Source: Haloarcula halophila (GTDB taxonomy: Archaea; Halobacteriota; Halobacteria; Halobacteriales; Haloarculaceae). Taken from it: 64,000 nucleotides of DNA. The notes under the pieces are model-generated. The model did no database searches. It saw only the letters and a list, made by a program, of their open reading frames with translations, and was not told where the DNA came from. This document shows, one piece after another, positions 31,308 to 46,487 of this stretch. The stretch is from assembly GCF_029278565.1 (NCBI RefSeq), contig NZ_CP119559.1:1-64000 (forward strand). Direction: 5' to 3'. Positions within the stretch are counted from its first letter, which is position 1; every line of letters starts with the position of its first letter. The translations under genes were made by a program, and so were the position numbers.

Positions 31308-31513
31308 GGGTGGATCTGTGGCGACCAACGGGATAAACGTCCCGTCGAACGCCGGTCCCGGAGACGTTTGCGGTAGCAGACGAGTCGATCCACACACCGC
31401 CGAAGGTGAACTGTTCGGCCCGTCTCTGGCTCTCCGTTCAGCTACCGGGTTGGGATCCCAACCGGATCGCAGGGTCGTGCAACTGTATCGACGCGAGAGT
31501 GTCTCCCGTTCCG

Positions 31514-32230
31514 CTACGCCTGTTGGAGAACGCTGTAGCGGGCATAGATAGGCGCTTCCGACTGGACCGACTGGTCGTCGAGACGGTAGGTCACGCCGAC
31601 GGTCGCGGGTGTGACTGCAACGAGTCGGTCGAAGGTAACCGACGTCTCACTGACGATCTCGCCCTCACGGTCCAGAACCGTCTCTACCGAGACGAAAGGC
31701 GCGAGATCCGTCCCGTCGACACTGCTCGTGATCCCGCTACCGACCTCGTCGGTCCCGAGCGCCCCGTTCGCGTGCTCCGCAGCAGCGCGGGCCGCGGCCG
31801 TGAACGCCTCCGTCCGAGCCCACTGCTCGAACGGGACCGTCTCGTACACTGGTTCCCGTTCCGGCTTCGCACCCTCCTTGACTTCCTCGTGGTTCGTGTG
31901 CTTCCAGGCAGCGACGTACCGTACCGCGTGCTCCGATTCGACGTACTCGACGTTCTCGTCGGTCTCGACGACCTCGGTCGTCACTTCGGCATCGCTCTCA
32001 CCGCGCGTCGGACCCCGTGAATCCGAGAGCGTCGGCTGATCGTCCGTCGTGGCTTCGGTCGACACGGCTGTCTCCGTGGGTGAATCTGTCGATGACGGCG
32101 ACTGTTCTGTTCGGGCCTGGGGAGTCGCTGTCGGTTCCGGCGCTTGCGATCCGCCTGGCGCACTCGCGAGGCATCCACCGAGAGACGGGACGGCAGCACC
32201 GACAGCGGCGAGGAGGGCACGGCGATTCAT
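31514..32230 (-). CDS. Tat-exported lipoprotein, unknown function
   Basis: A 238-residue secreted lipoprotein. The twin-arginine signal is MNRRALLAAVGAAVPS, with the lipobox LGGC placing the lipidated Cys near residue 20. A Thr/Ser/Pro/Glu-rich spacer (about 25-75) then precedes a globular domain with alternating strands (AVRYVAAWKHTNHEE, AAARAAAEHANGAL). I recognise no family. It is divergent from the siderophore-binding protein gene. Confidence 0.75.
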   Translation of the reverse strand: MNRRALLAAVGAAVPSLGGCLASAPGGSQAPEPTATPQARTEQSPSSTDSPTETAVSTEATTDDQPTLSDSRGPTRGESDAEVTTEVVETDENVEYVESEHAVRYVAAWKHTNHEEVKEGAKPEREPVYETVPFEQWARTEAFTAAARAAAEHANGALGTDEVGSGITSSVDGTDLAPFVSVETVLDREGEIVSETSVTFDRLVAVTPATVGVTYRLDDQSVQSEAPIYARYSVLQQA

Positions 32231-32286
32231 ACGCGAACTTCGTGACGATTCCGGTAAGGCTCTTGTGGAGGGGCCGCTCGTCTATT

Positions 32287-32302
32287 ATTTGGCTGGCCTA
32301 AA
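32287..32302. promoter_or_regulatory. DtxR/iron-box-like operator, upstream of first binding protein
   Basis: ATTTGGCTGGCCTAAA matches 13 of 16 positions of the perfect palindrome at 33642-33657. It sits 14-20 nt upstream of the TATA-like ttata (32316-32320), about 40 nt before the ATG at 32343. Placement is consistent with a metal-responsive regulator. The family (SirR/Idr, DtxR type) is inferred from the motif and the genes it precedes. Confidence 0.55.
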
Positions 32303-32342
32303 ATCCGGAAGCGACTTATACCTGCACCAGGCTTGCCAAACT

Positions 32343-33581
32343 ATGGACTTTCTCGACGATGCAAACGAACTGACGCGGCGGAACTACGTCGCTGGTGGCA
32401 GTGCGCTGCTGGGCAGCGCACTCCTCGCAGGCTGTACGGGCAGCAGTGGGGATTCCGCTCCCGACGCGTCCGCTGAGACGGAGGGGACTCCCGAAACGGA
32501 CCAGACCGCGACGCCTGGGACCACAGCGACGGCTGACGGCTCCTACACCGCGACGCTGTCACCGGTCGGCGAGGTCGAGTTCGATTCGGTACCGGAGAAC
32601 GTCCTCACGATCTACAACCAGTACCCGGATATGTTGGTCGCGCTCGGCCACGCCGACGCCGTCAATTCGATGTTCGTCCCCGATATGGCCGGCCCGACGA
32701 TGAACCACTACTACGAACGGCTCGACGGCGTCTCGTTCGACTGGGAGGGGCTCCCGAACCCGTTCAACAACTTCACGAAGGAGTTCTTCTACGGTCTCGA
32801 CAGCGACGTTCACCTTCTGGACTCCGCGTGGGCGCTCACGCAGGACAACTGGAGCAGGAGTGACATCGAGGAGATCTCCGAGACGCTCGGCCCGTTCTTC
32901 GGGAATTTCTACAGCGGTACAAACGATACCCCGCCGGAGTCCTACAGCGGCCAGTACGAGTACTACACGCTGTGGGAACTCTTCGGACGTGTCGCCGACG
33001 TCTTTCAGGAGCGTGACCGATACCAGCGGCTCAAAACAATCCACGAGGATCTCCTCGCGACGATCGAGTCGAACCTCCCACCCGAATCGGACCGACCGAC
33101 TGCCGTCCGTGTCACCCTCGGTGACGGACAGTTCTGGACGTACCACTTGAACCGTCCGGGGTTCTGGCTCGCCGACACCCGCCCGCTCGCTGCCACCGAC
33201 GCATTCGGCAGTGCGGAGTGGGACGGGCTCTGGGGCTCTGTCGGCTACGAGACGATGCTCGAGGCTGATCCCGATGTCGTCCTCCATCTCTGGGGGATGA
33301 CGCCGCGCTACGACATGGCGACTGTCCGGGAGACGCTGACCTCTCATCCGGTCGGGCAGGAACTGACCGCCGTCCAGAACGACCGTGTCCACGCACAGGG
33401 GATGCGCTACCAAGGGCCGATCATGAACCTCTTCCAGATCGAGATGACCGCGAAACAGCTCTATCCCGATATCTTCGGCGAGTGGCCCGCCTACGAAGAC
33501 GGCAACCACTATCCCGAATTCCCGGAGGACGAACAACTGTTCGACCGGGATCGGGTCGCGAGCATCGTCACCGGGAACTGA
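32343..33581 (+). CDS. iron-siderophore ABC substrate-binding lipoprotein 1
   Basis: A Tat-exported lipoprotein of 412 residues that binds ferric siderophore or haem outside the cell. It has an RRNYVAGG twin-arginine signal and the lipobox LAGC, then a Thr/Asp spacer and a FecB/TroA-type two-lobe domain (VPENVLTIYNQYPDMLVALGHADAV; EADPDVVLHLWG). A strong paralogue follows directly. An iron-box-like palindrome and TATA precede it, pointing to iron-repressed, leaderless expression. No permease or ATPase gene is in the window, so the partner importer must be elsewhere. Confidence 0.85.
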   Translation: MDFLDDANELTRRNYVAGGSALLGSALLAGCTGSSGDSAPDASAETEGTPETDQTATPGTTATADGSYTATLSPVGEVEFDSVPENVLTIYNQYPDMLVALGHADAVNSMFVPDMAGPTMNHYYERLDGVSFDWEGLPNPFNNFTKEFFYGLDSDVHLLDSAWALTQDNWSRSDIEEISETLGPFFGNFYSGTNDTPPESYSGQYEYYTLWELFGRVADVFQERDRYQRLKTIHEDLLATIESNLPPESDRPTAVRVTLGDGQFWTYHLNRPGFWLADTRPLAATDAFGSAEWDGLWGSVGYETMLEADPDVVLHLWGMTPRYDMATVRETLTSHPVGQELTAVQNDRVHAQGMRYQGPIMNLFQIEMTAKQLYPDIFGEWPAYEDGNHYPEFPEDEQLFDRDRVASIVTGN

Positions 33582-33641
33582 ACGGCGACCGTGCCACAGC
33601 AGTGAGTCCGGTCGGCCGAAGAACCGAAGCAGTTATCAATA

Positions 33642-33657
33642 TTTAGGCTAGCCTAAA
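33642..33657. promoter_or_regulatory. perfect iron-box palindrome TTTAGGCT/AGCCTAAA
   Basis: TTTAGGCTAGCCTAAA is a perfect 16-bp palindrome ending 3 nt before the ATG at 33661. The TATA-like ttatcaatattta lies just upstream (about 33632-33644), so the site covers the start of transcription, a classic repressor position. The sequence resembles DtxR/IdeR boxes (TTAGGxTAxCCTAA). Confidence 0.75.
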
Positions 33658-33660
33658 AAC

Positions 33661-34884
33661 ATGGGAGCCGATGAGTGCAGTCACGAAGGGCCGACGCGGC
33701 GGGACTACGTAAAGTATAGCGGAGCGATCGTCGGCAGCGCGCTGCTCGGCGGTTGTTCGAGTACCACCAGCGAATCGGGATCGGGATCGACATCGACTGA
33801 GACGCCGACAACTGGGACGCCCGCGTCTGAAGACGGATCGTATTCGGTGACGATGGCCCCGATGGGGACGGTCACGTTTGAGACGGTTCCACAGAACGTC
33901 TTGGCGAGTTCGACGGCCACGATCGATATCACGGCGGCGCTCGGTCACGGAACTGCGGTACAATCAACGACACGTCCGTCGACCTCCGTTCCTGCGCTGG
34001 AATTCTACTACTCCACGCTGGACACTACAACTGACTGGATCGATTTCACGGATGCTGGGGGTTACAGCAAGGAGACACTGTACGAACTGGATAGTGATGC
34101 CCACTTCCTCGATCCATCGTACGTCGATTCACTCGACGGATGGAACAGGTCCGATATCGAAGAGGTCGAGGGGAACGTCGGGCCGTTTTTCGGTAACTTG
34201 TACAGCCGAAAGCACCGTCAACCGCCCGAATCCTGGCGGGATTCGTATCAGTACTACACGGTCTGGGAACTCACCGAAAAGTACGCCGAACTGTTACAGG
34301 AACGGGAGCGCTTCGAGCAACTGTTCGCTCTCAAAGAGACCCTTCTGAGCGACATCCGATCGAACCTCCCGTCACCGAACGACCGACCGACAGTCGGTAT
34401 GGTGTACCCCCGGCTGTCGGAAGATTCGTTCTACGTCCACAAACTCAACCAGCCAGGGTACTTTTTCGCACACACTCGCCCGTTGGGCGCCGGTGACGTA
34501 TTCACGGACATCGAGACCGACGAATACGGTGGGAAACTCATCGACTACGAAGCGATGCTCGATGCCGACCCGGACGTCATCATCATGAACCACGGCATCT
34601 CCTCGTACTACGATGTCCCCGAGACGAAACAGGCCATCCGTGATCACAGCGTGGGAGCGGAACTGACCGCCGTCCAGAACGATCGTCTCTACGGGTCCGG
34701 CAACCCACGGCAGGGTCCGCTGATGAACCTCTTCCAGTTGGAGATGACCGCGAAACAATTCTATCCGGACCGGTTCGGCGAGTGGCCGGGGTACGTCGCT
34801 GGAGAACCCTACCCGGACATCCCCGAGGACGAACGGCTGTTCGACCGCCAGAAGCTCGCAGCCATCGTCAACGGGGAGTTCTAA
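33661..34884 (+). CDS. iron-siderophore ABC substrate-binding lipoprotein 2
   Basis: A 407-residue tandem paralogue of the gene upstream: same RR signal (TRRDYVKYSG) and lipobox LGGC, same Thr/Ser spacer, and near-identical blocks such as GAELTAVQNDR, PLMNLF and EMTAKQFYP. It has its own perfect iron box, so the two copies are separately promoted. Divergence in the ligand lobe (ALEFYYSTLDTTTDWIDF) suggests a different siderophore or a spare copy. Confidence 0.85.
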   Translation: MGADECSHEGPTRRDYVKYSGAIVGSALLGGCSSTTSESGSGSTSTETPTTGTPASEDGSYSVTMAPMGTVTFETVPQNVLASSTATIDITAALGHGTAVQSTTRPSTSVPALEFYYSTLDTTTDWIDFTDAGGYSKETLYELDSDAHFLDPSYVDSLDGWNRSDIEEVEGNVGPFFGNLYSRKHRQPPESWRDSYQYYTVWELTEKYAELLQERERFEQLFALKETLLSDIRSNLPSPNDRPTVGMVYPRLSEDSFYVHKLNQPGYFFAHTRPLGAGDVFTDIETDEYGGKLIDYEAMLDADPDVIIMNHGISSYYDVPETKQAIRDHSVGAELTAVQNDRLYGSGNPRQGPLMNLFQLEMTAKQFYPDRFGEWPGYVAGEPYPDIPEDERLFDRQKLAAIVNGEF

Positions 34885-34966
34885 ACAGTCCCTCTCGTCC
34901 TCTACCCGAACGCATTGCCCACTGATCGAGGCGATTCTTTTTCACTGACAGCCATCTCTTTTACCC

Positions 34967-35182
34967 ATGGATTGGCTCACCGCGTACAATGGCGTCCCCA
35001 TCCGTGTTGCCCTGTACCTCTTGATTTTCTGGCCGACAGTCGGTTACTATATCTATAGCGACGCCACGAAGCGTAGTCTATCACTGCCGAAAGCTCGGGG
35101 TGTTGCATACGGGGCTCTCGGGTTAGTCGGTCTAGTGATATATCTGTCTCAGAGAGCGAGGAGCGAGGAAGACTCCGCGTGA
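34967..35182 (+). CDS. small two-span membrane protein
   Basis: A 71-residue protein with two hydrophobic helices (VALYLLIFWPTVGYYIYSD and GVAYGALGLVGLVIYLS) and a short charged tail (SQRARSEEDSA). A loop rich in Lys/Arg separates them. No family recognised. TATA-like ctcttttac precedes it. Its 3' end overlaps the end of the Orc1/Cdc6 relic on the other strand by about 50 nt, suggesting the relic's 3' end has eroded. Confidence 0.6.
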   Translation: MDWLTAYNGVPIRVALYLLIFWPTVGYYIYSDATKRSLSLPKARGVAYGALGLVGLVIYLSQRARSEEDSA

Positions 35183-35845
35183 CTCAGCCGTCCGAGGATC
35201 CTCACTTGGCAGAGGACTCCAGCTCAGCAACGGTCTCTCCTCAATCACATCTGTCGTCAGCCGCTCATCATCGTGGTCCTGGACGTGCTTGACCCCGCGA
35301 CGCAACAGCGCGAGCCCGTGTCGAGCGTCACCGGCTGCTAGATCGGCGACAAACGGCACCACGTCGTCGACCTGCGACCCCACCAACCCCTGGGCAACCC
35401 GGCTCGCAAGGCTATCACACAACTCCTCGTGACTGTACTTGTCCAGATGGATCGTCGCGGCCGACCGCATCCGTGAGGTCGCCTGCCCTGACAGCGCCGA
35501 GAACCACTCATCCTCGTCGGTTGTGATCGCTACTACCGACACGTTCGAGACCTCCGCCAGCGCCAGCAGCGCGCTCTCGTCGACGACGCTCACCTCGTCG
35601 AGGATGACCACGACCTGATCGTCGTAGTTCCGGAGCCGCCGAACCGCCTCGACGGCCGGCGTCCCCTCACGCCGGAGGTCAGCACCGAGGTCGGCGTCCC
35701 GAACTGCTTCGTGCAAGACACCGGTCCGAGAGTTGACCGAGAGACAGTTCACGTAAGCCCAACGAATCCCGAGCCGTTCGAAGCAGCCGAAGAGTTCGTC
35801 GCCAGCCCACACGAGTGGGGCTTCCGTCGGTATCCCGTTGCACAC
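35132..35845 (-). pseudogene. Orc1/Cdc6-type AAA protein relic lacking Walker A
   Basis: Residues 26-190 match the middle of a haloarchaeal Orc1/Cdc6 replication initiator (IRWAYVNCLSVNSRTGVLHEAV; Walker B VVVILDEVSVVDE; sensor-like VVAITTDEDEW; AAGDARHGLALLRRG). The first 25 residues do not contain the P-loop, and the C-terminal winged helix is missing: after LTTDVIEE the sequence becomes unrelated. The protein would not bind ATP in the normal way. I read it as a remnant of a replicon or mobile element, next to the unusual chaperonin genes. Confidence 0.7.
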
Positions 35846-36005
35846 CTCAAATTACTGATTGGCCCGCCCTTGGCTCTCGAGAGTATCCTAAAGCGGTCCC
35901 ACTAACCGCTGTGAATCCAAAAGAAAATGATAGTTCCCTGTAATTTTTTGTACCCTCGAAGCGATAGAATCGGTAGCAAGGCAGACGTCCGCGCCAACCC
36001 GACGT
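35846..36005. promoter_or_regulatory. promoter region of the chaperonin gene pair
   Basis: A short gene-free stretch. It contains an A/T-rich segment (about 35918-35950, aaaagaaaatgatag then aattttttgta) that can act as TATA/BRE, roughly 60 nt before the ATG at 36006, with a CGAA after it (35957). Heat-shock promoters of haloarchaeal cct genes use CGAA-flanked TATA boxes, so heat control is possible but not shown. Confidence 0.35.
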
Positions 36006-38671
36006 ATGGCTGAACGACATCGGTACGACCGACCCCTATTCATTCTATCCGAAGAGACGCGTCGCACGACCGACGAGACAGCCCAATCAAGCAATATCGC
36101 AGCCGGGACGGCCGTAGCAGAGGCAGTACGCACCACGCTTGGGCCAAATGGCATGGACAAGATGCTCGTCGACGATGATGGCACGGTCGTTATCACGAAC
36201 GACGGGCTCACGATTCTCGAGGAGATGGATATCGAGCATCCAGCGGCGCAGATGCTCGTTGAGGTAGCCGAAACGCAGGCTGACGAGATCGGTGACGGAA
36301 CTACCACTGCCGTCACTCTCGCCGGTGAGTTACTGTCTCAGGCTGAAACCCTTCTGGACCAGGGTCTCCACCCCACGACAATCGTCTCGGGATATCGACA
36401 GGCCGCCAGCCAAAGCGAACAGCTTCTCGAACGTATCGTGACTCACGTGGATACGACCGACAGGGCACCCCTTCGGCGTGTGGCCAGGACTGCCATGACT
36501 GGGAAGGGTGCCACAGCTGACCATTTGAGCGAGTTGGTCGCCCGTGCGGTCCAAACAGTGCAGGTGAATGGGGCAGTCGACTCCGACAGCATCCGGATCG
36601 AGACAACCAGTGGAACCAGTGAAGACTCTGAGCTACTCGAGGGCGTCGTGCTAGATGCGAGTCCAGCCCACGAGACCATGCCAACCGCGGTCACAGACGC
36701 CAACGTCGCCCTGCTGGACACAGCCCTCGAAGTCCCTCAGACGGATTTGGATACCAAAATCACGGTTTCCGACCCGGATCAACTACAGGCCTTTCTCGAT
36801 CAGGAAACTGCCCAACTCGAATCACGAGCCGAGGCACTGGTGGATGCCGGGGCGGATGTCGTTGTCTGTCAGGGTATGATTGACCGATTGGCCCAGGCAT
36901 ATCTGGCCCAAGCGGGTCTGTTGGCAGTGAGCGATGTGGACCAAGCCGACCTCGAGAGCCTTTCGCAGGTAACGGGCGCTCGCATCGCCGGCGCGCCCAC
37001 CGATATCGGGACTGAAGATCTGGGTTCGCACGAAATATCGCACAGGAACAGTTCGGTGAGGCGGAGCGGCTCGTAGTCACGGGCGCTGCTGACGTTGCGA
37101 CTGTTACGCTGCTGATCCGAGGGGGCACCGAACATGTCGTCACCGAACTCGAACGGGCCGTACAAGATGCCGTCTCGATGGTCGCCACAACAGTGGCGGA
37201 TGAGCGGCTCCTCCCTGGTGGTGGTGCCGCAGCGACGGAACTCGCGATGGGTTTGCGTGAGTATGCTACGACTATTGACAGGCAGGAGCAACAGGCCATC
37301 GAAGCCGTCGCCGCCGCCCTCGATACCATTCCGCAAACACTTGCCGAGAACGCAGGCAGTGACTCGATAGATACACTTGTCGAACTCCGCACACAGCACG
37401 ACGATGGGGTGCTCACCGCTGGGGTGGATGCTGGGACCGGCGAGGTTGTTGATATGGGGGCGGCTGGTGTCGTTCAGCCGCTCTCGGTACTCGTCCGGGC
37501 CATCGACTACGCTACCGAGGCCGCTGGGATGATTGTTCGCATCGACGATGTCATCAGTGCGGGCGAACAGCTCGACATATCCGGTGCCCAGGGTGGTACA
37601 GCACAACCGGTCGGACAGGAGTCCGAAGAAGGCGTCCGGCAGGCCCGACAGCGAGCGACGAAGCCAGCGACTGCTGCTGTCGAAGCGCCCGACAAGGTGC
37701 TTCCGAACGATCCGTTTGATCTCGATATTCACGTCGACGGGGAGTTTGATACGCTCTCCGTCGTACTCCCCGAGGGCATCGATTACATAACCGATCCAGA
37801 GGAGATGCCGTCTGTGGAGGCGACTGGAGCAAGGTCACTTCAGGTCGAAACTACAGACGAGCGTGACGTCTTCCGGAAGCTGGAATGCGTGTATACGCGG
37901 CTCCCTGACTCACCCACAGCGTCTGTCGAAATCGAGATCAGGCTCAGAAGTAGCGAACAGGAAGTCAGAACGTATACTGAGTCTGTAACAATCCAACGGC
38001 CGGAGTTAGACACCCGGGTGTCAACGGTCGCCCGCAAATCTGACGAGGAGACTCGGGAATTGGCGATCGAGTTACGTAACACCAGTCCTCTCCGGCTCGA
38101 CGTAGATATCAAGGCCTTCGCCGATGGCCGCCCGGTTGCTGTCTACACCAGCCCAGTCAAGGAATTGGTTACCGGATTCCTCAACATCGGACTCCACCGG
38201 TTGACTGCAGCGGAACTGGTTGCTGGACCGCTCATTGACGATGAGACGAAGCAGGCGACGCTATCCGACGCTGTCCGTTCCGTCGAACAAGCCCTGGCCG
38301 AGGGCACCGTCGATCCGCCAGAACCGTACGAGCAACCAGTCTTAGCCGATTTGCTGGAATCACTGCAATCGATGCTCAACAAAGACAATATGACGCCGCT
38401 GTCGGACTTCTACCCGGAGGTAATCAGGAGCGTCTTGCGGGTAGAAGGGCGTGAGTATCCAGCCGAATCGATCCGGCTTAACGAAATTGTCGACCAGTTT
38501 CGGCTACCGCCCGACACGTCGGAATTCGAGATTATGATCTGGTATTCGGATAGTGCCGGTAACCCGTACCCACCACATAGCCACACGGTCACTATACCGG
38601 GGACAACCGACCGAGTTGAACCGCTCCGTATCGACCCACGAATTCGCGGAATCCACGCGGAGGAGGAATAA
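36006..38671 (+). CDS. divergent group II chaperonin with novel C-terminal extension (frame interrupted)
   Basis: Residues 1 to about 530 are a thermosome/Cpn60 group II subunit. The ATP site reads [14 protein letters not shown] and [12 protein letters not shown], catalytic Asp [34 protein letters not shown] and [12 protein letters not shown]. Instead of the usual short Gly/Met tail, about 350 more residues follow (from about 37600): a Pro/Glu-rich joint, then probable beta-sandwich strands and a helical segment. One lost base near 37025 splits the frame; restoring it gives [18 protein letters not shown]. The stop overlaps the next ATG by 1 nt (TAATG). Codons such as CGA, ATA and CTA are more frequent than in neighbours, suggesting transfer. 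I know no described chaperonin of this shape. Confidence 0.82.
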
Positions 38672-39576
38672 TGACCGACGTCACCGGGACGGGGACACTT
38701 CGGGCGTCGACGGTGTTCAGACTGCTTGGTGATATCAAAGACTTGCTTGCCGACTTCCACCCTGAGCTGTACAGGGTCGCTATTCATGGTAAGCGGCTAA
38801 CAGCCGAACTGGAGTTTACGGTCGAAATCTCACGGAGTGTACTCGATCGTGCTGGCAGCGCCATTACGCTGGAAATCCCGGAGCAATACGAGTTCGAATA
38901 CCTCCGCCGAGACGACCGGCTCGTCCATCCAAAGCCGTCGCCAGTCGATCCACCGACCACGAGCACATACCAGTGGAAAATCCCTGCGCCCGATCCCGGC
39001 GAGTATACGCTTGCCATCACCGGTCCGATCTCAGCGGAATTCTACGAGACGCTCGTGGAGACTGATGACCGGGAACGGAAGACGATCAGGACCGAATACA
39101 CCAACGAAGTCAGACTGAAATACACGCCACTTGCTGATACCGAAACCCTCATCGAGTGGTGTACCGGGACAACGGAGTTCGACAACCGGTATCTACTCAG
39201 AGAAGTACGAGAGCGTCTGGATGAAGTCGACTTGGACGAGGCATCCCTCTCCGACGACTGGACACACCCCGGTAGTGGGCAGTCTTACAGCGCTAACACC
39301 ACGACGTCGGACGACGACGCAGTTGTCGAACTCGTTGATCAACTCCGAAACCGGGTGGAAGAAGGATATATAGAAGCTCACATCCAAGTCCCTGGTGACT
39401 ACTTTGAATACGACGACACTACCTTCGAGCGCAACGAACTTGGACTGCCAAAGTCTTTCACAGTCACGGTCGTCACTGATTTAGGAGACGAGTCGGTGGT
39501 TACCAGAGAGAAGGTCACCTTCGATAAGTCCGAGTTTTGGGACCATCTCGACACGACACTCGATGCAGTACGGTGA
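38671..39576 (+). CDS. unrecognised protein coupled to the chaperonin
   Basis: A 301-residue soluble protein with no signal or transmembrane span. It has an N-terminal helix-strand domain (LLADFHPELYRVAIHGKRLT), strand-rich middle (ITLEIPEQYEFEYLRRDD; TYQWKIPAPDPGEYTLAI) and an acidic C-terminus ending in a helix (EFWDHLDTTLDAVR). TAATG overlap with the chaperonin stop implies co-translation and a common job. The N-terminal block resembles a segment in the chaperonin's own extension (see findings). It may be a dedicated substrate or subunit. Family unknown to me. Confidence 0.65.
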   Translation: MTDVTGTGTLRASTVFRLLGDIKDLLADFHPELYRVAIHGKRLTAELEFTVEISRSVLDRAGSAITLEIPEQYEFEYLRRDDRLVHPKPSPVDPPTTSTYQWKIPAPDPGEYTLAITGPISAEFYETLVETDDRERKTIRTEYTNEVRLKYTPLADTETLIEWCTGTTEFDNRYLLREVRERLDEVDLDEASLSDDWTHPGSGQSYSANTTTSDDDAVVELVDQLRNRVEEGYIEAHIQVPGDYFEYDDTTFERNELGLPKSFTVTVVTDLGDESVVTREKVTFDKSEFWDHLDTTLDAVR

Positions 39577-39851
39577 CTGCGTTGAATAATATCGGAGATA
39601 CTCCCGGCGATCATAAATCACTGTTTACCTGTACGTTCTAAATACTACAGAATATCGAAGCGAAACGTAGGTGGACAACTCCTGCAGTAGTCAACACCGT
39701 TACAGACGGACCTTCGAGAGAGTGACACGCAGATAGTCAACACTACCATCACTGCTTATGAACTTGTCAATCGGACCAGAACGCCCACCCGCTATCCTAC
39801 ACACCGACACCGAAGTGCTCCCGCTGACTCGCGGTTACCTACCACCTGCCC
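39577..39851. other. intergenic region downstream of chaperonin pair
   Basis: I see no gene. The first 100 nt are A/T rich (gttgaataatatcgg..aaatactac), possibly a terminator and the promoter of the next small gene. Pro/Arg-rich frames here are shadows. Confidence 0.3.
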
Positions 39852-40457
39852 ATGACCCACGACCGCATCCACGCTCGACGACCGACCCACCATGCCGACC
39901 GCTGGACCGAAGGCACGATCGAAACACTCGAACAACGAGATGGCCACTGCCACGTCACTGTCCGCCCACCCGAGGGCGGCCCCGTCGAACTCGTCGTCAC
40001 ACTGGCCGTTCGCGATCTCTTCCTCCGACGACTGGACCTCGACGACGACTCCCCGATCGGCGAACGGGTCTGGTATCGGAAACACGGTGGGACGTAGGGG
40101 ACAATTATAGCGTCCAGCGCTTAGTATCGAAGAAAGAGGAGCCCTATTCGCTACCGGCCTCATCGACTGCGGCCGTGGCAACTTACACTGGATGTGAAGT
40201 AGTTCATCGACCTCGAACTCCAGCCAGTGAACCGCGCACGTTTCAGCGATCTCCCGCTTTTGCTCGAGCGTCATATCCTCTCGACTCAGTACATCCTCGA
40301 TCGCCTCGACCGGTGCGGGCACGTTGTCACACGCGTAGGCCACGGCGTCCGACCGGTTGCACCCGTAGAACTCACTGGCCCCCTCGACTGCGTGGTACCG
40401 ATACTCGTTCCCGTCACCGGTCCGAATCCGGATCGACCCTGGTATCTCCTCGGCCAT
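39792..40457 (-). CDS. DUF7692-like small protein with eroded 3' end
   Basis: Only the first 85-90 residues (40190-40457) look genuine: MAEEIPGSIRIRT, then EFYGCNRSDAVAYACDNVPAPV and REDMTLEQKREIAETCAVHWLEFEVDE. This resembles haloarchaeal DUF7692 proteins about 90 residues long. The frame then reads on 400 nt into sequence antisense to the neighbouring gene, so the natural stop has been lost; a small indel near 40200 would end it at TAA (40193-40195). Start ATG at 40455-40457. No function known. Confidence 0.5.
   Translation of the reverse strand: MAEEIPGSIRIRTGDGNEYRYHAVEGASEFYGCNRSDAVAYACDNVPAPVEAIEDVLSREDMTLEQKREIAETCAVHWLEFEVDELLHIQCKLPRPQSMRPVANRAPLSSILSAGRYNCPLRPTVFPIPDPFADRGVVVEVQSSEEEIANGQCDDEFDGAALGWADSDVAVAISLFECFDRAFGPAVGMVGRSSSVDAVVGHGQVVGNRESAGALRCRCVG
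39852..40097 (+). CDS. small conserved haloarchaeal protein
   Basis: An 81-residue basic-acidic protein beginning MTHDRIHARRPTHHADRWTE and ending GERVWYRKHGG. The pattern (HHADRWTEGTIE..VTVRPPEGGPVELVVTLAVRDLFLRRLD) alternates strands and looks like a small SH3-like or OB-like domain; I recall it as a haloarchaeal family of unknown function (possibly DUF7861). Hydrophobic and Asp codons are typical of real genes here. Overlaps the read-through tail of the minus-strand frame. Confidence 0.6.
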   Translation: MTHDRIHARRPTHHADRWTEGTIETLEQRDGHCHVTVRPPEGGPVELVVTLAVRDLFLRRLDLDDDSPIGERVWYRKHGGT

Positions 40458-40858
40458 ACTCGTGAACACGACCCCCAGAATCCCAGTTTTTCGCCTACCT
40501 GGCCCCCCAGAACACTCGAAACACCGGGGACCTTTCACTAGATTGAGACAACACCGACCGCGAACTACGACCACCAACTGGATATGAACACATCGATGCC
40601 GGGGTTCGTGTTCATATTGCTGCGAGCGCTCGCGTCGACGCACAACCGCGGGCGGTCGCGCCGAAACCGCGAAGACCGGGATTCTTCGGTTCCCTTCGTC
40701 ACTACGAACCGGGTTCGAGTCTCGACGACACACCGTGTTTCGAGTGAAAACGACGGTTTCTATTACGATCTATCAGACAAGTCGTCGCTACTGTATTCTC
40801 ACTCTCTTCGGTACCACCCGCAGGATCCTGACTATCCGTGTCCCGCAGGAAGGGTCAG
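40458..40858. other. intergenic region with a 10-bp inverted repeat
   Basis: No gene is supported. It holds a perfect inverted repeat (see separate entry). A GGTTCGAGTC stretch at about 40714 looks like a tRNA T-arm but no full tRNA folds around it. Confidence 0.35.
40582..40617. repeat. perfect inverted repeat ATATGAACAC-N16-GTGTTCATAT
   Basis: Two 10-bp arms are exact complements, separated by 16 nt. It is about 125 nt upstream of the DUF7692-like start on the minus strand. It could be an operator, an RNA hairpin, or a scar of a mobile element; nothing else indicates which. Confidence 0.6.
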
Positions 40859-41617
40859 TCACACTGCGTCACGTTCGGTTTTGATCTGGTCGACGTACGT
40901 CTCAACGACATTCTTGATAATCACCTCTCCTGCCTCAGCGGTTGCTTGTGTCGGATCGCCAAGGACACCGTTCTCGGTGATTGATTCGAATCCCTCACTC
41001 AAGAGACGAGCTGGCGAGATATCGCCTTCGGGTCCGGACTCAATGGCCTCTGCTCTGACGAGGTCCTGATCGATGGCCATCACCATCGCGGTTTCGGCAG
41101 CGCCAGCGTGGATCACGTCCTGATCGTACTCGATACCTGCATCGCTAAGCCCCTCGTTCAGTAAGTTCATGTGTTCGTCAAGGTCAGCAAGCGGAATTAC
41201 CGTTGCGTTAAGTTCGCGGGCGATGTCGGGAGCGACGGTCTTGACCGGTCCGAAGTTCCCACCATGAGTCGGAATAAGGACGATGTATTCGAAGCCATGT
41301 TCATCGAGAGATCGGCAGTACGTCCGGATCACGTTCATGAGTGTCTCCGGTGGAACGGTGATCGTACCGGGGAACTCCATGTGATGGCCTGAACAGCCAG
41401 GGCGAATCGTCGGGGCTGCGAGGGCATCACCCAGTTCTGTCGCAATTCGACGTGAGATCTCGTCCCCGTCCAGTGTATCCATATTCAACGGGAGGTGTGG
41501 ACCGTGTTGTTCAATCGAACCCACGGCTACGATTGCCGTCCGGGATCCATCTTCAATAGCGGACTCGACTTCTGGCCAGACCATCTCCTCAAGACATACT
41601 GATTCGCGAGAAGGCAT
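40859..41617 (-). CDS. creatininase family amidohydrolase
   Basis: A binuclear metal hydrolase of 252 residues. Metal ligands are in VGSIEQHGPHLPL (Glu, His), MDTLDGD (Asp), THGGNFG (His) and the Glu strand AGAAETAMV. Related enzymes act on creatinine or on formamide/lactam groups in cofactor biosynthesis (MftE-like), so the substrate is not settled. Its neighbourhood is accessory. Start ATG at 41615-41617. Confidence 0.85.
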   Translation of the reverse strand: MPSRESVCLEEMVWPEVESAIEDGSRTAIVAVGSIEQHGPHLPLNMDTLDGDEISRRIATELGDALAAPTIRPGCSGHHMEFPGTITVPPETLMNVIRTYCRSLDEHGFEYIVLIPTHGGNFGPVKTVAPDIARELNATVIPLADLDEHMNLLNEGLSDAGIEYDQDVIHAGAAETAMVMAIDQDLVRAEAIESGPEGDISPARLLSEGFESITENGVLGDPTQATAEAGEVIIKNVVETYVDQIKTERDAV

Positions 41618-41740
41618 GCATCAACACCTGTCCTGTCGGACCAAAATCAGTTGTGGTGGTGTGGGACTGGCTCACATAGGCGCCTGCGAACTAGGTGGGC
41701 CGGCCGAACCGGCCCGTCTAGTCGGTCGTCACCGTCTACT

Positions 41741-41760
41741 TGTTAGGCCACACCCTAACA
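41741..41760. promoter_or_regulatory. palindromic operator site 1 (TGTTAG-N8-CTAACA)
   Basis: TGTTAGGCCACACCCTAACA has perfect 6-bp arms. A second copy with the same arms starts 27 nt later. Both lie just before the TumE-like gene at 41795. Likely regulator sites. Confidence 0.65.
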
Positions 41761-41767
41761 CTCCAAC

Positions 41768-41787
41768 TGTTAGGGAACACACTAACA
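41768..41787. promoter_or_regulatory. palindromic operator site 2 (TGTTAG-N8-CTAACA)
   Basis: TGTTAGGGAACACACTAACA has perfect 6-bp arms identical to site 1, and ends 7 nt before the ATG at 41795. The spacing of 27 nt start to start places the two sites on similar faces of the helix (about 2.5 turns apart). Confidence 0.65.
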
Positions 41788-41794
41788 AACATCG

Positions 41795-42074
41795 ATGGCC
41801 GATGATGTCGAGGTGCTCGAAGACGAGATTCAGGCCTACGACGATGGCACCGTCGTTCGGATACGCATCCTCGATGTGCCGGCCTCGGAGCAGTATCCCG
41901 AGGGCAAGTACGCCTTCCACTACGGCGAAGCCGGCGCAGACGACCACATCATCCGCTTCGACAACCACCACGCACGAGCTGCACATCGGTGGCCAGGTCT
42001 TCGAACTCGAGTTCTCGGGTGACGTTGGACTCTGTGGCCTCGAGTCGGGCAGCGATGTCGAGGCTGCACCCTGA
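41795..42074 (+). pseudogene. TumE-like toxin relic (TumA-TumE toxin-antitoxin family)
   Basis: The first 60 residues follow the TumE/DUF6516 pattern: EDEIQAYDDGTVVRIRILDV, SEQYPEGKYAFHYGEAG and IIRFDNHH. After HH the frame shifts; the other frame continues ELHIGGQVFELEF, then diverges from the family. A residue also seems lost in the usual YPEGVKY. The usual partner, a TumA helix-turn-helix antitoxin downstream, is missing. I read it as a broken toxin gene whose operator survives. Start ATG at 41795. Confidence 0.55.
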
Positions 42075-42176
42075 CCCGCCTCACCGGTAACGGGTCGTCC
42101 TGACAGTGGCCGGTGCCGATATCTGTCGGTGAAATTGATCAAACGATTTTATGCTGCACGTGCCAAGACGACTGCA

Positions 42177-42716
42177 ATGGGTGGCAGAAGTCGTGGTGCG
42201 TCGTCGGTAATCGGGGTACTGTTACTGGTTGGTGTGACCGTCATCGTGGCAGGGCTGCTCTCCGTGTTCGCACTCCAGATCGGTGATTCAGCCACGCGGT
42301 CCGCGCCGACAGCTGAGTTCGAGGTCGATACCTGTACTGATTGTGGAAGCCTGGCGCTCGCCGACGATCCCAGTCGGAGTGGAACGACGAACTTCCTGAA
42401 TATCACGTTCACCCACGGTGAGACACTCGACGCCGAGAACGTAGCTGTCTACTTGGAGGGACAAATCCTGTTCGACCCGTCGAAGACAGGGAGTGCGGCG
42501 TATTACCAGCCTGCCAATTACGATGGCGCCGCCAGCAACGATCTTCGCTGGTCGAGCGACCAAATCGCGGCCGGTGAACAACTGATTCTCGAAGACGATG
42601 CGGATGCCAGTGCTACGGAGCCAGTGTTCCGGGAGGGGCAAGTCGTCCGTGTCGTCTGGACACAACCCGATACCGGCGAGTCGTATACGCTGGTCAAGCG
42701 GACGCTCAGATACTAA
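42177..42716 (+). CDS. type IV pilin-like protein
   Basis: A secreted pilin subunit of 179 residues. The N-terminus MGGRSRGASSVIGVLLLVGVT matches the PibD signal (RGAS-SVIG) plus the hydrophobic filament helix. The rest is strand-rich with a CTDC pair (DTCTDCGSLAL). A TTTTAT element at about 42147-42152 lies about 26 nt upstream of this ATG, supporting a leaderless start here rather than the ATG at 42129. The gene stands alone in the island; pilins often vary between strains for adhesion or virus evasion. Confidence 0.72.
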   Translation: MGGRSRGASSVIGVLLLVGVTVIVAGLLSVFALQIGDSATRSAPTAEFEVDTCTDCGSLALADDPSRSGTTNFLNITFTHGETLDAENVAVYLEGQILFDPSKTGSAAYYQPANYDGAASNDLRWSSDQIAAGEQLILEDDADASATEPVFREGQVVRVVWTQPDTGESYTLVKRTLRY

Positions 42717-42954
42717 GGCTGCGAATACCAACTGGTGACGGCCAGTTCGATCCCGAGTGACGAAATTCGTGGAATGTAGAGCCTGTCATAGAAACATCCT
42801 CACGATATTTTTTCACCGACATCTGGCTGAATCACCCGGTCAGTAAGCGTGCATACTGACGACAGAGTGAATCTGAAATAATTATGTGTTAATATTTCAT
42901 TAGATGGTACGGACAAAATTTTAATTGCTATGCCCTCACCTGCCTTTGTGTATA

Positions 42955-44499
42955 ATGCCAAGCAGCGGAAAATCCTCTGCCGACCGAGACACCGATGTAA
43001 ATGACGGCATGATCGCCAACGCGCAGGGCGCAGTGAGCGTCGTGCTCACAACCTCCGAATCGGTCGACGATCAGCTCGAAGGGATTCAAACCGCAGCCAC
43101 CACACAGGTTGAGGAGATGGACGCCGTGGCCAACGATATCTCCAAGCTGAGTGCCACCATCGAGGAGATCTCTTCGTCTGCCGAAGAGGTCAATCAGACA
43201 ACTAACCGCGCAGCCGAGATGGCCAATGCAGGCCGCTCAGCCGCCGACGAGGCAACGGACGCGATGGAAACGGCCTCCGACTCGACAGAGCAGGTACAAG
43301 AGAACGTCGAAGCCTTAGAGCAGAAAGTCACCCAGATCAACGAGGTCGTCGATATGATCAACCAGATCGCCGAGCGCACCAACATGCTCGCATTGAACGC
43401 CTCAATCGAGGCCGCCCGCGCAGACGAGGCGGGCGATGGCTTCGCGGTCGTCGCTGACGAGGTCAAATCTCTCGCCGAAGAGTCTCAGTCCCGCACTGAA
43501 GAAATCGAAGCAACACTCACTGAAATTCAGGATTTGACCGCTGACGTGACCGAGGCGCTCGACGAGGCCGTCACAGCGGTCGAAAACGGAGCCGATCGAG
43601 TGCAGACGACCGATGAGAAACTCGAATTCGTGAGCGACGAAATTCAGTCGGCCGCCACTGGGATCGACGAGGTCTCAATGGCCGTACAAGAGGGCGCCGA
43701 GGCAGCGACCCGCGTCGCCGGCGTAACCGACGAAACCGCTGACGCAGCCCGGGAAATTAGCGGTTCGGTCGACGATATTGGTGACGAACGCGCCGACACC
43801 ACTGACCTCCTCAACGAAATCGACGACGCGCTATCGGATGCCCGCGAAGGGCGCGAAGCCCGACTCAGCAACGCCGACACTGTCCCAACCGGCATCGACG
43901 AGTTCGACCGAATGGGTGGTCTCCCAGCCGGTTCACGGTCGGTAATCGCGGCTGACACAGGCGACGAGTCGGTCTCCACTGATGTCGTTGACAGTGCGGT
44001 CGCCACCTGCTGTGCGGCGGCTATCGACGCTGGATGGGCCGCCTCACTGTCGCCGACGGCTACGCTTGACCGTCACACCCTTGACAATGCCCTCGGTGCG
44101 AGGGCCGACGTGACACTCACCGACGCTTTAGCAGGCAACCGACTGTTCGTGCTTGATCTGTTCGGATCGTGGAATCACGATGAGAACGTAATCAATGTCA
44201 CAGAACACGGGCTTGATACGGCTAACTCACGTGTCGATAGACGGCGCGACCGCCCGCTGTTTGTCATCGGCAATATCGCCGGCGAACTGGACCTCATGGG
44301 CGAAGAGGCCGTCAGGGAAAATACCTACGAGAATGATGGTGACGTGTTGAGCGACGACGATCTCGTTGTCAACGTCATAGACGAAGCAACTGTTCCCGAG
44401 CAACTCACCTCATTCTACCTCGGGGCAGCCGACCGGAGCTGCCGGCTTGACGGCACACAGCAACGACAAAACGGTACTAGATCAACGCTTGGCCGATAG
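42955..44499 (+). CDS. soluble chemotaxis transducer (MCP) fused to a degenerate KaiC-like domain
   Basis: A 514-residue cytoplasmic transducer. Residues about 15-295 are a coiled-coil MCP signalling domain, with the hairpin tip INQIAERTNMLALNASIEAA and the AGDGFAVVADEVKSLAEES arm. No transmembrane or HAMP segment precedes it. Residues about 308-480 follow the KaiC/RecA-like HTR pattern: TGIDEFDRMGGLPAGSRSV where Walker A belongs (here degenerate, ADTGDES), the strand LFVLDLFGSWN, then LFVIGNIAGELDLMGEEA. An ATG at 42955 has an ATTTTAATT box about 30 nt upstream. Such an arrangement could let a nucleotide- or protein-binding module feed CheA. Confidence 0.78.
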   Translation: MPSSGKSSADRDTDVNDGMIANAQGAVSVVLTTSESVDDQLEGIQTAATTQVEEMDAVANDISKLSATIEEISSSAEEVNQTTNRAAEMANAGRSAADEATDAMETASDSTEQVQENVEALEQKVTQINEVVDMINQIAERTNMLALNASIEAARADEAGDGFAVVADEVKSLAEESQSRTEEIEATLTEIQDLTADVTEALDEAVTAVENGADRVQTTDEKLEFVSDEIQSAATGIDEVSMAVQEGAEAATRVAGVTDETADAAREISGSVDDIGDERADTTDLLNEIDDALSDAREGREARLSNADTVPTGIDEFDRMGGLPAGSRSVIAADTGDESVSTDVVDSAVATCCAAAIDAGWAASLSPTATLDRHTLDNALGARADVTLTDALAGNRLFVLDLFGSWNHDENVINVTEHGLDTANSRVDRRRDRPLFVIGNIAGELDLMGEEAVRENTYENDGDVLSDDDLVVNVIDEATVPEQLTSFYLGAADRSCRLDGTQQRQNGTRSTLGR

Positions 44500-44962
44500 C
44501 GATGCTAACGCAGCCCCATTATCCGGAAGCTATCCTGATCCCATCGCCTGCATGCCTGTCGCCCTCGTCTCGAAATGAGTGTTGATGCTGAGGAATACGT
44601 ATCAAGATGTGCTAGTAAAAGGGGAAACCTGAGAGCCGAGTTCTCTCACATATTGGCCTCGGCTACAGCGACACCTGCAGTGTCACTGCTCTTGTGCTGA
44701 CTACACCCTCTATATCTTGCATGGCGTTTCTAATAGACTTCTGAGAAGTAGTCGGTGGGATCAGTAAGTGAGCAACCTGTACTGACCACCCACGGATGAC
44801 TGGTACGGGGTTGGGAACGGTTCTACGACACGCTCTCCTCGTGATATTCACCCTCCTATCGCGCACACTAATTCCGACAGATCCTGTAAAAATTCCATAC
44901 CACGAAGATTATTCGCTCAAGGAACGAGCCGCGTTAGCGGCGAGTGAGTAGGGCGGGACAGT
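44500..44962. other. gene-poor stretch with possible small relic
   Basis: No complete gene. On the minus strand (44663-44866) the segment HLLIPPTTSQKSIRNAMQD followed by IEGVVSTRAVTLQVSL resembles an ACT/NikR-type regulatory strand-helix unit, probably a gene fragment. Flanking sequence is A/T rich and stop-laden. Confidence 0.3.
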
Positions 44963-45217
44963 TCACTCGTCAGTCGGGCCACCGTACACGTCGTCGGTGA
45001 GCAACTGCTGGGCCGCGATCCGCTGGATCGCGTCACACCGGAAGGTCACCGCGCTCGTCGCACACGCGCAGGATAGAGGCTCCTGAGTCGAGGCGTTCGA
45101 CCGAGAACGTCCGATCCTCCGGCGACCGTCCTCGGTGAGCAACCCGTCTCGCTCCGGGAAGTCTTTCGGGATCGGCACCAGCCCCGAGCCGTTCTTGTCC
45201 TGTAGCTTCTGCGGCAT
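44963..45217 (-). CDS. AbrB-like/DUF8053-type small protein (two compensating frame breaks)
   Basis: A protein of about 85 residues. It starts MPQKLQDKNGSGLVPIPKDF, a swapped-hairpin AbrB-like start, then RDGLLTEDG. The other frame carries SPEDRTFSVERLDSGASILRV, then the first frame resumes as CDAIQRIAAQQLLTDDVYGG. Two small losses (near 45125 and 45045) explain this, the first fixed by one G. I recall similar haloarchaeal proteins (DUF8053). Probably a DNA-binding regulator on mobile or plasmid DNA; may be decayed. Confidence 0.5.
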   Translation of the reverse strand: MPQKLQDKNGSGLVPIPKDFPERDGLLTEDGRRRIGRSRSNASTQEPLSCACATSAVTFRCDAIQRIAAQQLLTDDVYGGPTDE

Positions 45218-45369
45218 AGCAGAACCACCCAGCTATTCGCTGATAAATGGCCCCGACGATACCAGAGTTTGTGGAACCTTTGGCCAAAAAATTGTACAGA
45301 GCGGCGCGGCTTTTGTAGAGCCCAGAAACACGCGGCCAACCCGCGGACGGGCCGCGAGGGATACCACAG

Positions 45370-45769
45370 GTATGCCACCGACCGACGCCGGCCAGACACT
45401 GCCGTCCTTGCCAAGCAGTCACACGGCCGATTGGACCGCGTGGCAGGCGCTCGCGCCGCTCGCCATGCTCCAGCCACGCCTCGCGCTGGTCCAACCGCTG
45501 TACGATCATCGCTCGCGGTTCTGCCAGCGGGTTCCGCGGTATGCCCTTCGGGAGTGGATTCGATAGCCGGCGCACACATGCCTTCCAGGCACGCACCCGC
45601 TCGATGGAGTCCATCCTGTCGATCAGCGTCAGGACGATCCGGCGCCGATCGGCGTCGGTACCCAGATCCCGATCGAGCCCGCTCGCCGGGTCCTCGCCGA
45701 TGCGCTCCTGCGCTCAGGCACAGCGCAGTCGCTCGTCGCGGGCGCCCCCTTGTGTGGTGGCGGGCATCG
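45370..45769 (-). pseudogene. decayed helical protein of plasmid type
   Basis: A start MPATTQGGARDERLRC (45769) shifts into AQERIGEDPASGLDRDLG, DADRRRIVLTLIDRMDSI and ERVRAWKACVRRL, then RDxREAWLEHGERR-like helices. After about 45400 no frame keeps a protein-like composition. The RIEXVRAWKA pattern recalls short haloarchaeal domains found on plasmids. The 5' break near 45718 and missing 3' end argue for a relic. Confidence 0.4.
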
Positions 45770-46038
45770 GTCACCGCTTACCCAAATTGCAGGACTGTAC
45801 GTTGACCGCCTGTGAGGATGCTGGTGAATACAGGGGTTGTTATACTTGTATCCGAGACAACAGGCCGGGGACCAGGAGCCTCTGACATGGAAGCAAAGCC
45901 TGGCTTCCCATGTGTTCGGGACCGACAGCGGTTGCAGTATGGGACGTCGTGGACAGTGACAGCTACAGTCTGTCTCGCTGATTCGCCGAGCGCGGCACCT
46001 CGGCCCCGATACACACTTTCGAACACTACTCACCGGCT

Positions 46039-46446
46039 CTACCTCTCCCGACGCTCGCCATCGAGATCTAGCGACACCAGGTCCCACTGCGGATACGCGT
46101 CGTCACGACCCCGTGAACACTCGTAGAGCCGAAGCGTCGTGTACGGATACGCCACTCCACAGCGTTCCCGCCGATCCGGGTTACTGGCAGTGTGCGTCGG
46201 CACGATCTCCCGACAGTCTTCGCAGAGCCGACAGGCCAGCAGCAGGCCGTCGTCGCGGCCGTAGTCCAGCAGCACCGGGTCGATCGGACCGAGCGTGGTC
46301 CCACAGCCGTGAGAGCGCGTTTTTGCTGGCGTCACCGACTCGTCGAGCAGGTTCGGACAGCCCCCGAGGTGCCCGTACTCGACGGCTGCGGTCGGTGACG
46401 CGGAGATACGGGCGCGGCAGTGCGGACAACGCCAATATTCGGTAAT
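46039..46446 (-). CDS. zinc-finger protein with non-standard or lost start
   Basis: About 135 residues. The N-terminus (ITEYWRCPHCRARIS) begins with an ATT codon at 46444-46446, directly after a TAG. Cys pairs are CPHC, GGCPN and CRLCEDC, and the C-terminus is WDLVSLDLDGERR. The ATT could be a mutated ATG or an error; the first standard start (GTG at 46333-46335) would remove the first zinc knuckle. The frame otherwise looks real and intact. Function unknown. Confidence 0.5.
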   Translation of the reverse strand: MTEYWRCPHCRARISASPTAAVEYGHLGGCPNLLDESVTPAKTRSHGCGTTLGPIDPVLLDYGRDDGLLLACRLCEDCREIVPTHTASNPDRRERCGVAYPYTTLRLYECSRGRDDAYPQWDLVSLDLDGERRER

Positions 46447-46487
46447 CTACGGACCGATATCTCTGGGGATGTAACGTTTCAGATAAG

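Follow-up and report, generated by a model that had tools for sequence, protein, structure and literature searches.

KaiC-like proteins of archaea have been proposed to act as signalling hubs, whereas the chemotaxis system of archaea was imported from bacteria. A gene found in the first 64,000 nucleotides of a Haloarcula halophila contig (this whole stretch is referred to below as the window) raises the question of whether these two systems meet in one polypeptide, and of what such a protein would sense, as it joins the signalling hairpin of an MCP to a degenerate KaiC domain. The reading favoured here, considered probable from sequence comparisons, is that the gene encodes a soluble taxis transducer with an inactivated-KaiC (iKaiC) input domain, for which nitrogen or energy status would be the likeliest cue.

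Architecture of the transducer

The gene and its parts are located in the window as follows:

42955..44499, forward strand: MCP-iKaiC transducer gene (514 aa; ATG at 42955, stop codon ending at 44499)
42979..43419, forward strand: N-terminal arm of the hairpin, residues 9-155 (AF2 helix 9-155)
43246..43731, forward strand: MCPsignal domain PF00015 (residues 98-259, E 5.3e-41), with the CheA/CheW-binding tip NMLALNASIEAARA
43435..43872, forward strand: C-terminal arm of the hairpin, residues 161-306 (AF2 helix 161-306)
43873..44454, forward strand: inactivated KaiC-like (iKaiC) domain, residues 307-500 (hhalign probability 99.9-100; conserved columns)
43951..43971, forward strand: former Walker A, which reads ADTGDES (profile alignments and multiple alignment)

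The N-termini of the orthologues agree with the ATG at 42955, while translation might also begin at a TTG (42925) ten codons further upstream. The signalling part shows the conserved MCP tip ERTNMLALNASIEAARA, and every PDB chain matched by the whole protein is a chemoreceptor, aligned in this part. In the full-length AF2 model, which was built with five orthologues, the two helices form a single continuous hairpin with a pLDDT mostly of 52-87, the first 20 residues excepted. Glu pairs such as ATIEEISSSAEEV in the hairpin appear by eye to be suitable as candidate methylation sites. No transmembrane segment was found in a hydropathy scan, and no HAMP model occurs among the Pfam/NCBIfam matches. 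By its sequence and predicted hairpin the protein is thus a soluble MCP, as the first-pass annotation had stated. Further Pfam/NCBIfam matches to coiled-coil families (BORCS6, Rad50 and the like) and to Fibrinogen_aC were rejected as low-complexity or chance matches. The genome encodes 21 distinct MCP genes, together with four CheW-domain proteins, one of which is CheA-sized.

The C-terminal third had been taken for a KaiC-like module with doubtful ATP hydrolysis. A domain search does not identify it, since no Pfam/NCBIfam family scores above cut-off for the C-terminal ~200 residues, but profile-profile comparison does match it to KaiC. The link was provided by a 509-aa protein, found in a search of the same genome (C1:2822213), which begins with a KaiC ATPase domain of the usual kind (PF06745, E 2e-45) and carries an iKaiC-type domain at its C-terminus. 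Among 24 such double-KaiC proteins, the motif GxxGxGK[ST] is present in domain 1 of all 24 and in domain 2 of none, and the latter reads at the P-loop position like GGGLVRGGxLLxHDG. Along its entire length, the domain fused to the MCP (39 sequences) is homologous to this second domain (hhalign probability 100, E 1.3e-43, 223 columns), which in turn matches domain 1 in an alignment that spans the P-loop (probability 91, E 1e-6). When the fused domain is compared directly with domain 1, only a weak match results (probability 48), and its relationship to KaiC therefore goes via domain 2. A PDB profile search with the fused domain retrieved KaiC chains almost exclusively (best E 9e-4). Both the transducer C-terminus and domain 2 lack Walker A; the double-KaiC proteins, however, retain an active first KaiC domain, in whose place the transducer has the MCP hairpin. 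Judged by these profiles, the C-terminal domain belongs to the KaiC type in a degenerate form; it descends from KaiC without itself being a KaiC ATPase, and a RecA-like fold would be the natural expectation for it. AF2 gives a mean pLDDT of 34.4 for the isolated domain (with five close sequences) and values below 50 for this region of the full-length model. The MEDS model (PF14417) does not match the window domain in the Pfam search, and it matches two of 16 relatives weakly (best E 1.3e-4, below the Pfam curated cut-off). As a side observation, the double-KaiC family (L003, L039-L042 and L142-L161) is weakly GvpD-like, and its domain 2 lacks Walker A in all the members read.

The doubt about ATP hydrolysis proved well placed. 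The ADTGDES stretch aligns with the Walker A region and carries a six-residue insertion which, among the sequences of the multiple alignment, is found only in the window's own clade. The P-loop GxxxxGK[ST] is absent from the window domain and from all the fused relatives aligned, and the catalytic-glutamate region (STEQT in domain 1) is also missing, the fused domains reading LSPTATLD or LTPPPSLD-like instead. As the loss of Walker A is common to all the relatives read, it is old and does not reflect decay of the window copy; it predates the fusion family, being already present in the parent domain family represented by domain 2 of the double-KaiC proteins.

Soluble MCPs without membrane spans are also found in Halobacterium salinarum (Car, HemAT, Htr13 and Htr15). 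In Car and HemAT the sensor is N-terminal to the hairpin, in contrast to the presumed sensor of the window transducer, which is C-terminal and of KaiC type. Htr11 (Car), Htr13 and Htr15 show stronger binding to CheW2 than to CheW1 (PMC3579733). A closer likeness is offered by a survey of archaeal cytoplasmic chemoreceptors of class V, which describes uncharacterised C-terminal putative ligand-binding domains of at least 80 residues (PMC9680633), in the same topology as here. The main text of that survey does not mention KaiC, so the present assignment would put a name to one type of these "unknown C-terminal" domains of archaeal chemoreceptors. On the KaiC side, archaeal iKaiC, MEDS, and DUF835 have been described as KaiC-derived domains without ATPase in histidine kinases and response regulators; in the parts of that paper that were available, these fusions carry REC or kinase domains, unlike the MCPsignal domain found here, and no iKaiC-MCPsignal fusion is met (PMC5847659). 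No union of KaiC with a haloarchaeal MCP was found in the literature searched, and an earlier mention in the mBio 2017 paper on KaiC hubs (e01959-17) is possible. Fusions of iKaiC to signalling modules and cytoplasmic MCPs with C-terminal domains are hence known already, and what appears to be new is their union.

Distribution and gene neighbourhoods of the fusion

A genomic survey for MCP-KaiC fusions, an approach already indicated by the first-pass annotation, revealed that this architecture is recurrent. It occurs in 43 of 392 Halobacteriales genomes (about one in ten) from four families (f1, f4, f7, and f12), where matches with an E-value of 2e-69 or better were counted, the next ones (5e-34 or worse) being double-KaiC proteins. 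All the fused proteins read out are MCPs, including one broken example with a stop codon and a split frame (G018). No relatives of the transducer were found in viral contigs. Outside family f7 the tip shows good conservation, but in three genomes of this family (L132, L133, and L134) its EAARA motif is replaced by QAAQA or QAAKA. The corresponding tip positions of Tsr from E. coli matter for kinase control, and consequently the f7 proteins may signal in a different manner.

The genetic context of the fusion was compared at 41 loci, which do not count as independent observations. A histidine kinase with PAS and HATPase_c domains adjoins the transducer at 27 of these 41 loci, and at 24 it follows the transducer immediately on the same strand; in several loci the transducer stop codon and the kinase start codon overlap by 1-4 bases. 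A divergent amt gene is located upstream at 16 of the 41 loci, a linkage confined to family f1 and due in part to common descent, and the same 16 also encode glnK (P-II) and usually AsnC. A cheC gene lies near the transducer at eight of the 41 loci, all of them from Haloarcula. This recurrent operon with the PAS-histidine kinase, together with the nearby amt-glnK-AsnC(-cheC) genes, suggests nitrogen or energy status as the likeliest cue. Neither the kinase nor the amt neighbourhood is present at the examined loci of the clade to which the window copy belongs (the Halonotius type), so the case for a nitrogen cue is weakest for the window copy itself.

Origin of the window copy

Several data indicate that this copy is foreign to its genome, in which it occupies a region of distinct composition:

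31373..46463, no strand assigned: lineage-specific, mostly low-GC island that includes the transducer (non-homologous to G435; flanks align)

In a comparison with G435, which of the Haloarcula genomes found is the closest, both flanks can be aligned (86-87% identity) while positions 31373-46463 remain unaligned, and GC content falls to 0.54-0.61 at about 33.5-45 kb of the window, versus 0.62-0.68 outside. The genome as a whole is that of a Haloarcula: its RpoB' is 95-96% identical to those of the genus and 84% to that of Halonotius, and its second contig shows 78-87% identity with Haloarcula plasmids. In another genome of the same genus (G351), one plasmid contig is identical to a Haloarcula halobia plasmid. 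The transducer, on the contrary, is 72-81% identical to proteins of the Halonotius type and only about 44% identical to those of Haloarcula. In the tree it is the sister of the copy from the uncultured archaeon A07HN63 (support 100/99), within a Halonotius clade that a long, fully supported branch divides from the Haloarcula clade. As judged from these comparisons, the window copy reached this genome by horizontal transfer and is a xenolog of the Halonotius type.

The genome still holds the native amt locus (C1:1779000-1798999, L119), with amt, glnK, AsnC, cheC, and the PAS-histidine kinase, but the native transducer at this locus (at about 8.8-9.1 kb of L119) consists of only the first ~40 and the last ~60 codons. 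In G435 (L170) the native gene is similarly reduced, with different deletion ends, and no further transducer copy was found in that genome. The reduction of the native gene in both genomes places its loss around the split of the two lineages, and of these a foreign replacement is seen only in that of the window. Both reduced genes keep a short frame that runs into the kinase start, perhaps for translational coupling.

A second transducer gene, 100% identical, is found at C1:3030555, although it does not represent a true duplication, given that it sits in a 52-kb self-overlap of the contig ends. Window positions 1-51987 correspond to C1:2986676-3038664 with 99.92% identity, 24 gap openings, and 8 mismatches. 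This overlap indicates an untrimmed circular chromosome, and where genes of the window seem to be duplicated near the contig end, the second copies are hence artefacts.

Input, output, and competing explanations

The first-pass annotation had described a sensing-type domain placed after the signalling hairpin and, from this, control by an intracellular cue. The placement holds, with iKaiC residues 307-500 following helix 161-306, and the intracellular cue is graded as probable. In the mechanism proposed here, the hairpin tip would bind CheW and CheA like that of ordinary MCPs. The iKaiC domain would occupy the hairpin base, the point at which signals usually arrive from a HAMP domain, and from that end an input domain can work the same lever. 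With its P-loop lost, the iKaiC domain is incapable of an ATPase cycle, and binding of a ligand or of a protein should be its mode of action. Most likely, the binding of an intracellular ligand or partner protein would change its state, and this change would alter kinase control at the tip and in turn the switching of the archaellum. The cue may be nitrogen status, as suggested by the neighbourhood, or energy status, by means of KaiC-family partners. The recurrence of the fusion beside genes for ammonium uptake and histidine kinases makes it probable that an internal cue steers swimming through this transducer, and the neighbourhood yields a specific prediction, cheaply testable in Haloarcula, that taxis depends on ammonium or nitrogen status.

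It can be suggested only tentatively that these proteins constitute an undescribed class of chemoreceptors, in which an inactivated-KaiC input feeds nitrogen or energy status (Amt/P-II, PAS-histidine kinase) into archaeal taxis. If true, this would join the archaeal network of KaiC signalling to the bacterial-type chemotaxis system, and the presence of KaiC and MCP in one protein would make the bridge between them a direct physical one.

Among the alternatives, the one that survives best, although still rather unlikely, is that iKaiC offers a surface on which an active protein of the KaiC family docks, either the cell's double-KaiC ATPase or ArlH of the archaellum motor, so that the transducer would read the nucleotide or phosphorylation state of its partner and bind no small ligand itself. 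RecA/KaiC domains oligomerise, which favours such docking, as do the tandem arrangement of the parent domain and an active KaiC domain and the double-KaiC protein encoded in the window's genome at C1:2822213. Moreover, the KaiC-like protein ArlH binds ATP and makes contact with ArlCDE, which provides the link to chemotaxis (PMC8978795). Against this, no gene linkage between the transducer and the double-KaiC protein was seen, and in the same search a double-KaiC match was obtained in only some of the 43 genomes with the fusion.

It is less plausible still, and on balance improbable, that the transducer mainly serves the PAS-histidine kinase in an output other than taxis, such as the control of nitrogen genes, with the MCP hairpin as a scaffold. 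The overlapping frames and the adjacency of a kinase with PAS and HATPase_c domains at 27 of the 41 loci speak for this, and so does the frame into the kinase start that the deleted native genes of both genomes keep; however, the CheA/CheW-binding tip is conserved outside family f7, and the window's clade has no such kinase partner.

It is very unlikely that the C-terminal third is no more than an ordinary or decaying extension with no part in sensing. The absence of Pfam/NCBIfam family matches and the loss of the ATPase motifs would be compatible with it, but 37 columns are invariant across 16 divergent members, many of them far from the P-loop and including those in LFVLDxF, NV, END, and FYxGAAD. 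Such invariance points to purifying selection on the iKaiC domain, which is, in addition, kept in every fusion with an intact frame.

The soluble transducer with an iKaiC input is thus preferred to these readings, and also to the control of adhesion or pili that had been proposed from the adjacency of a pilin gene:

42129..42716, forward strand: archaeal type IV pilin (PF07790, E 3.8e-13), 0.2 kb upstream of the transducer

This gene is real, yet none of the other 40 loci examined has a pilin relative near the transducer, and in a variable island such as the one that holds both genes, some neighbours are to be expected by chance, which leaves the adhesion idea unsupported and its probability close to negligible.

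The island (31373-46463) also contains two tandem genes that by eye resemble lipoproteins of the substrate-binding-protein type (at 32049 and 33661), as well as a creatininase gene and a thermosome-like gene in two frames. The first of these frames (36006-37076) resembles by eye the N-terminal part of a thermosome protein, and the second (37178-38671) matches the C-terminal part of Cpn60/TCP1, followed by an uncharacterised region, in what may be either a frameshift or a real split.
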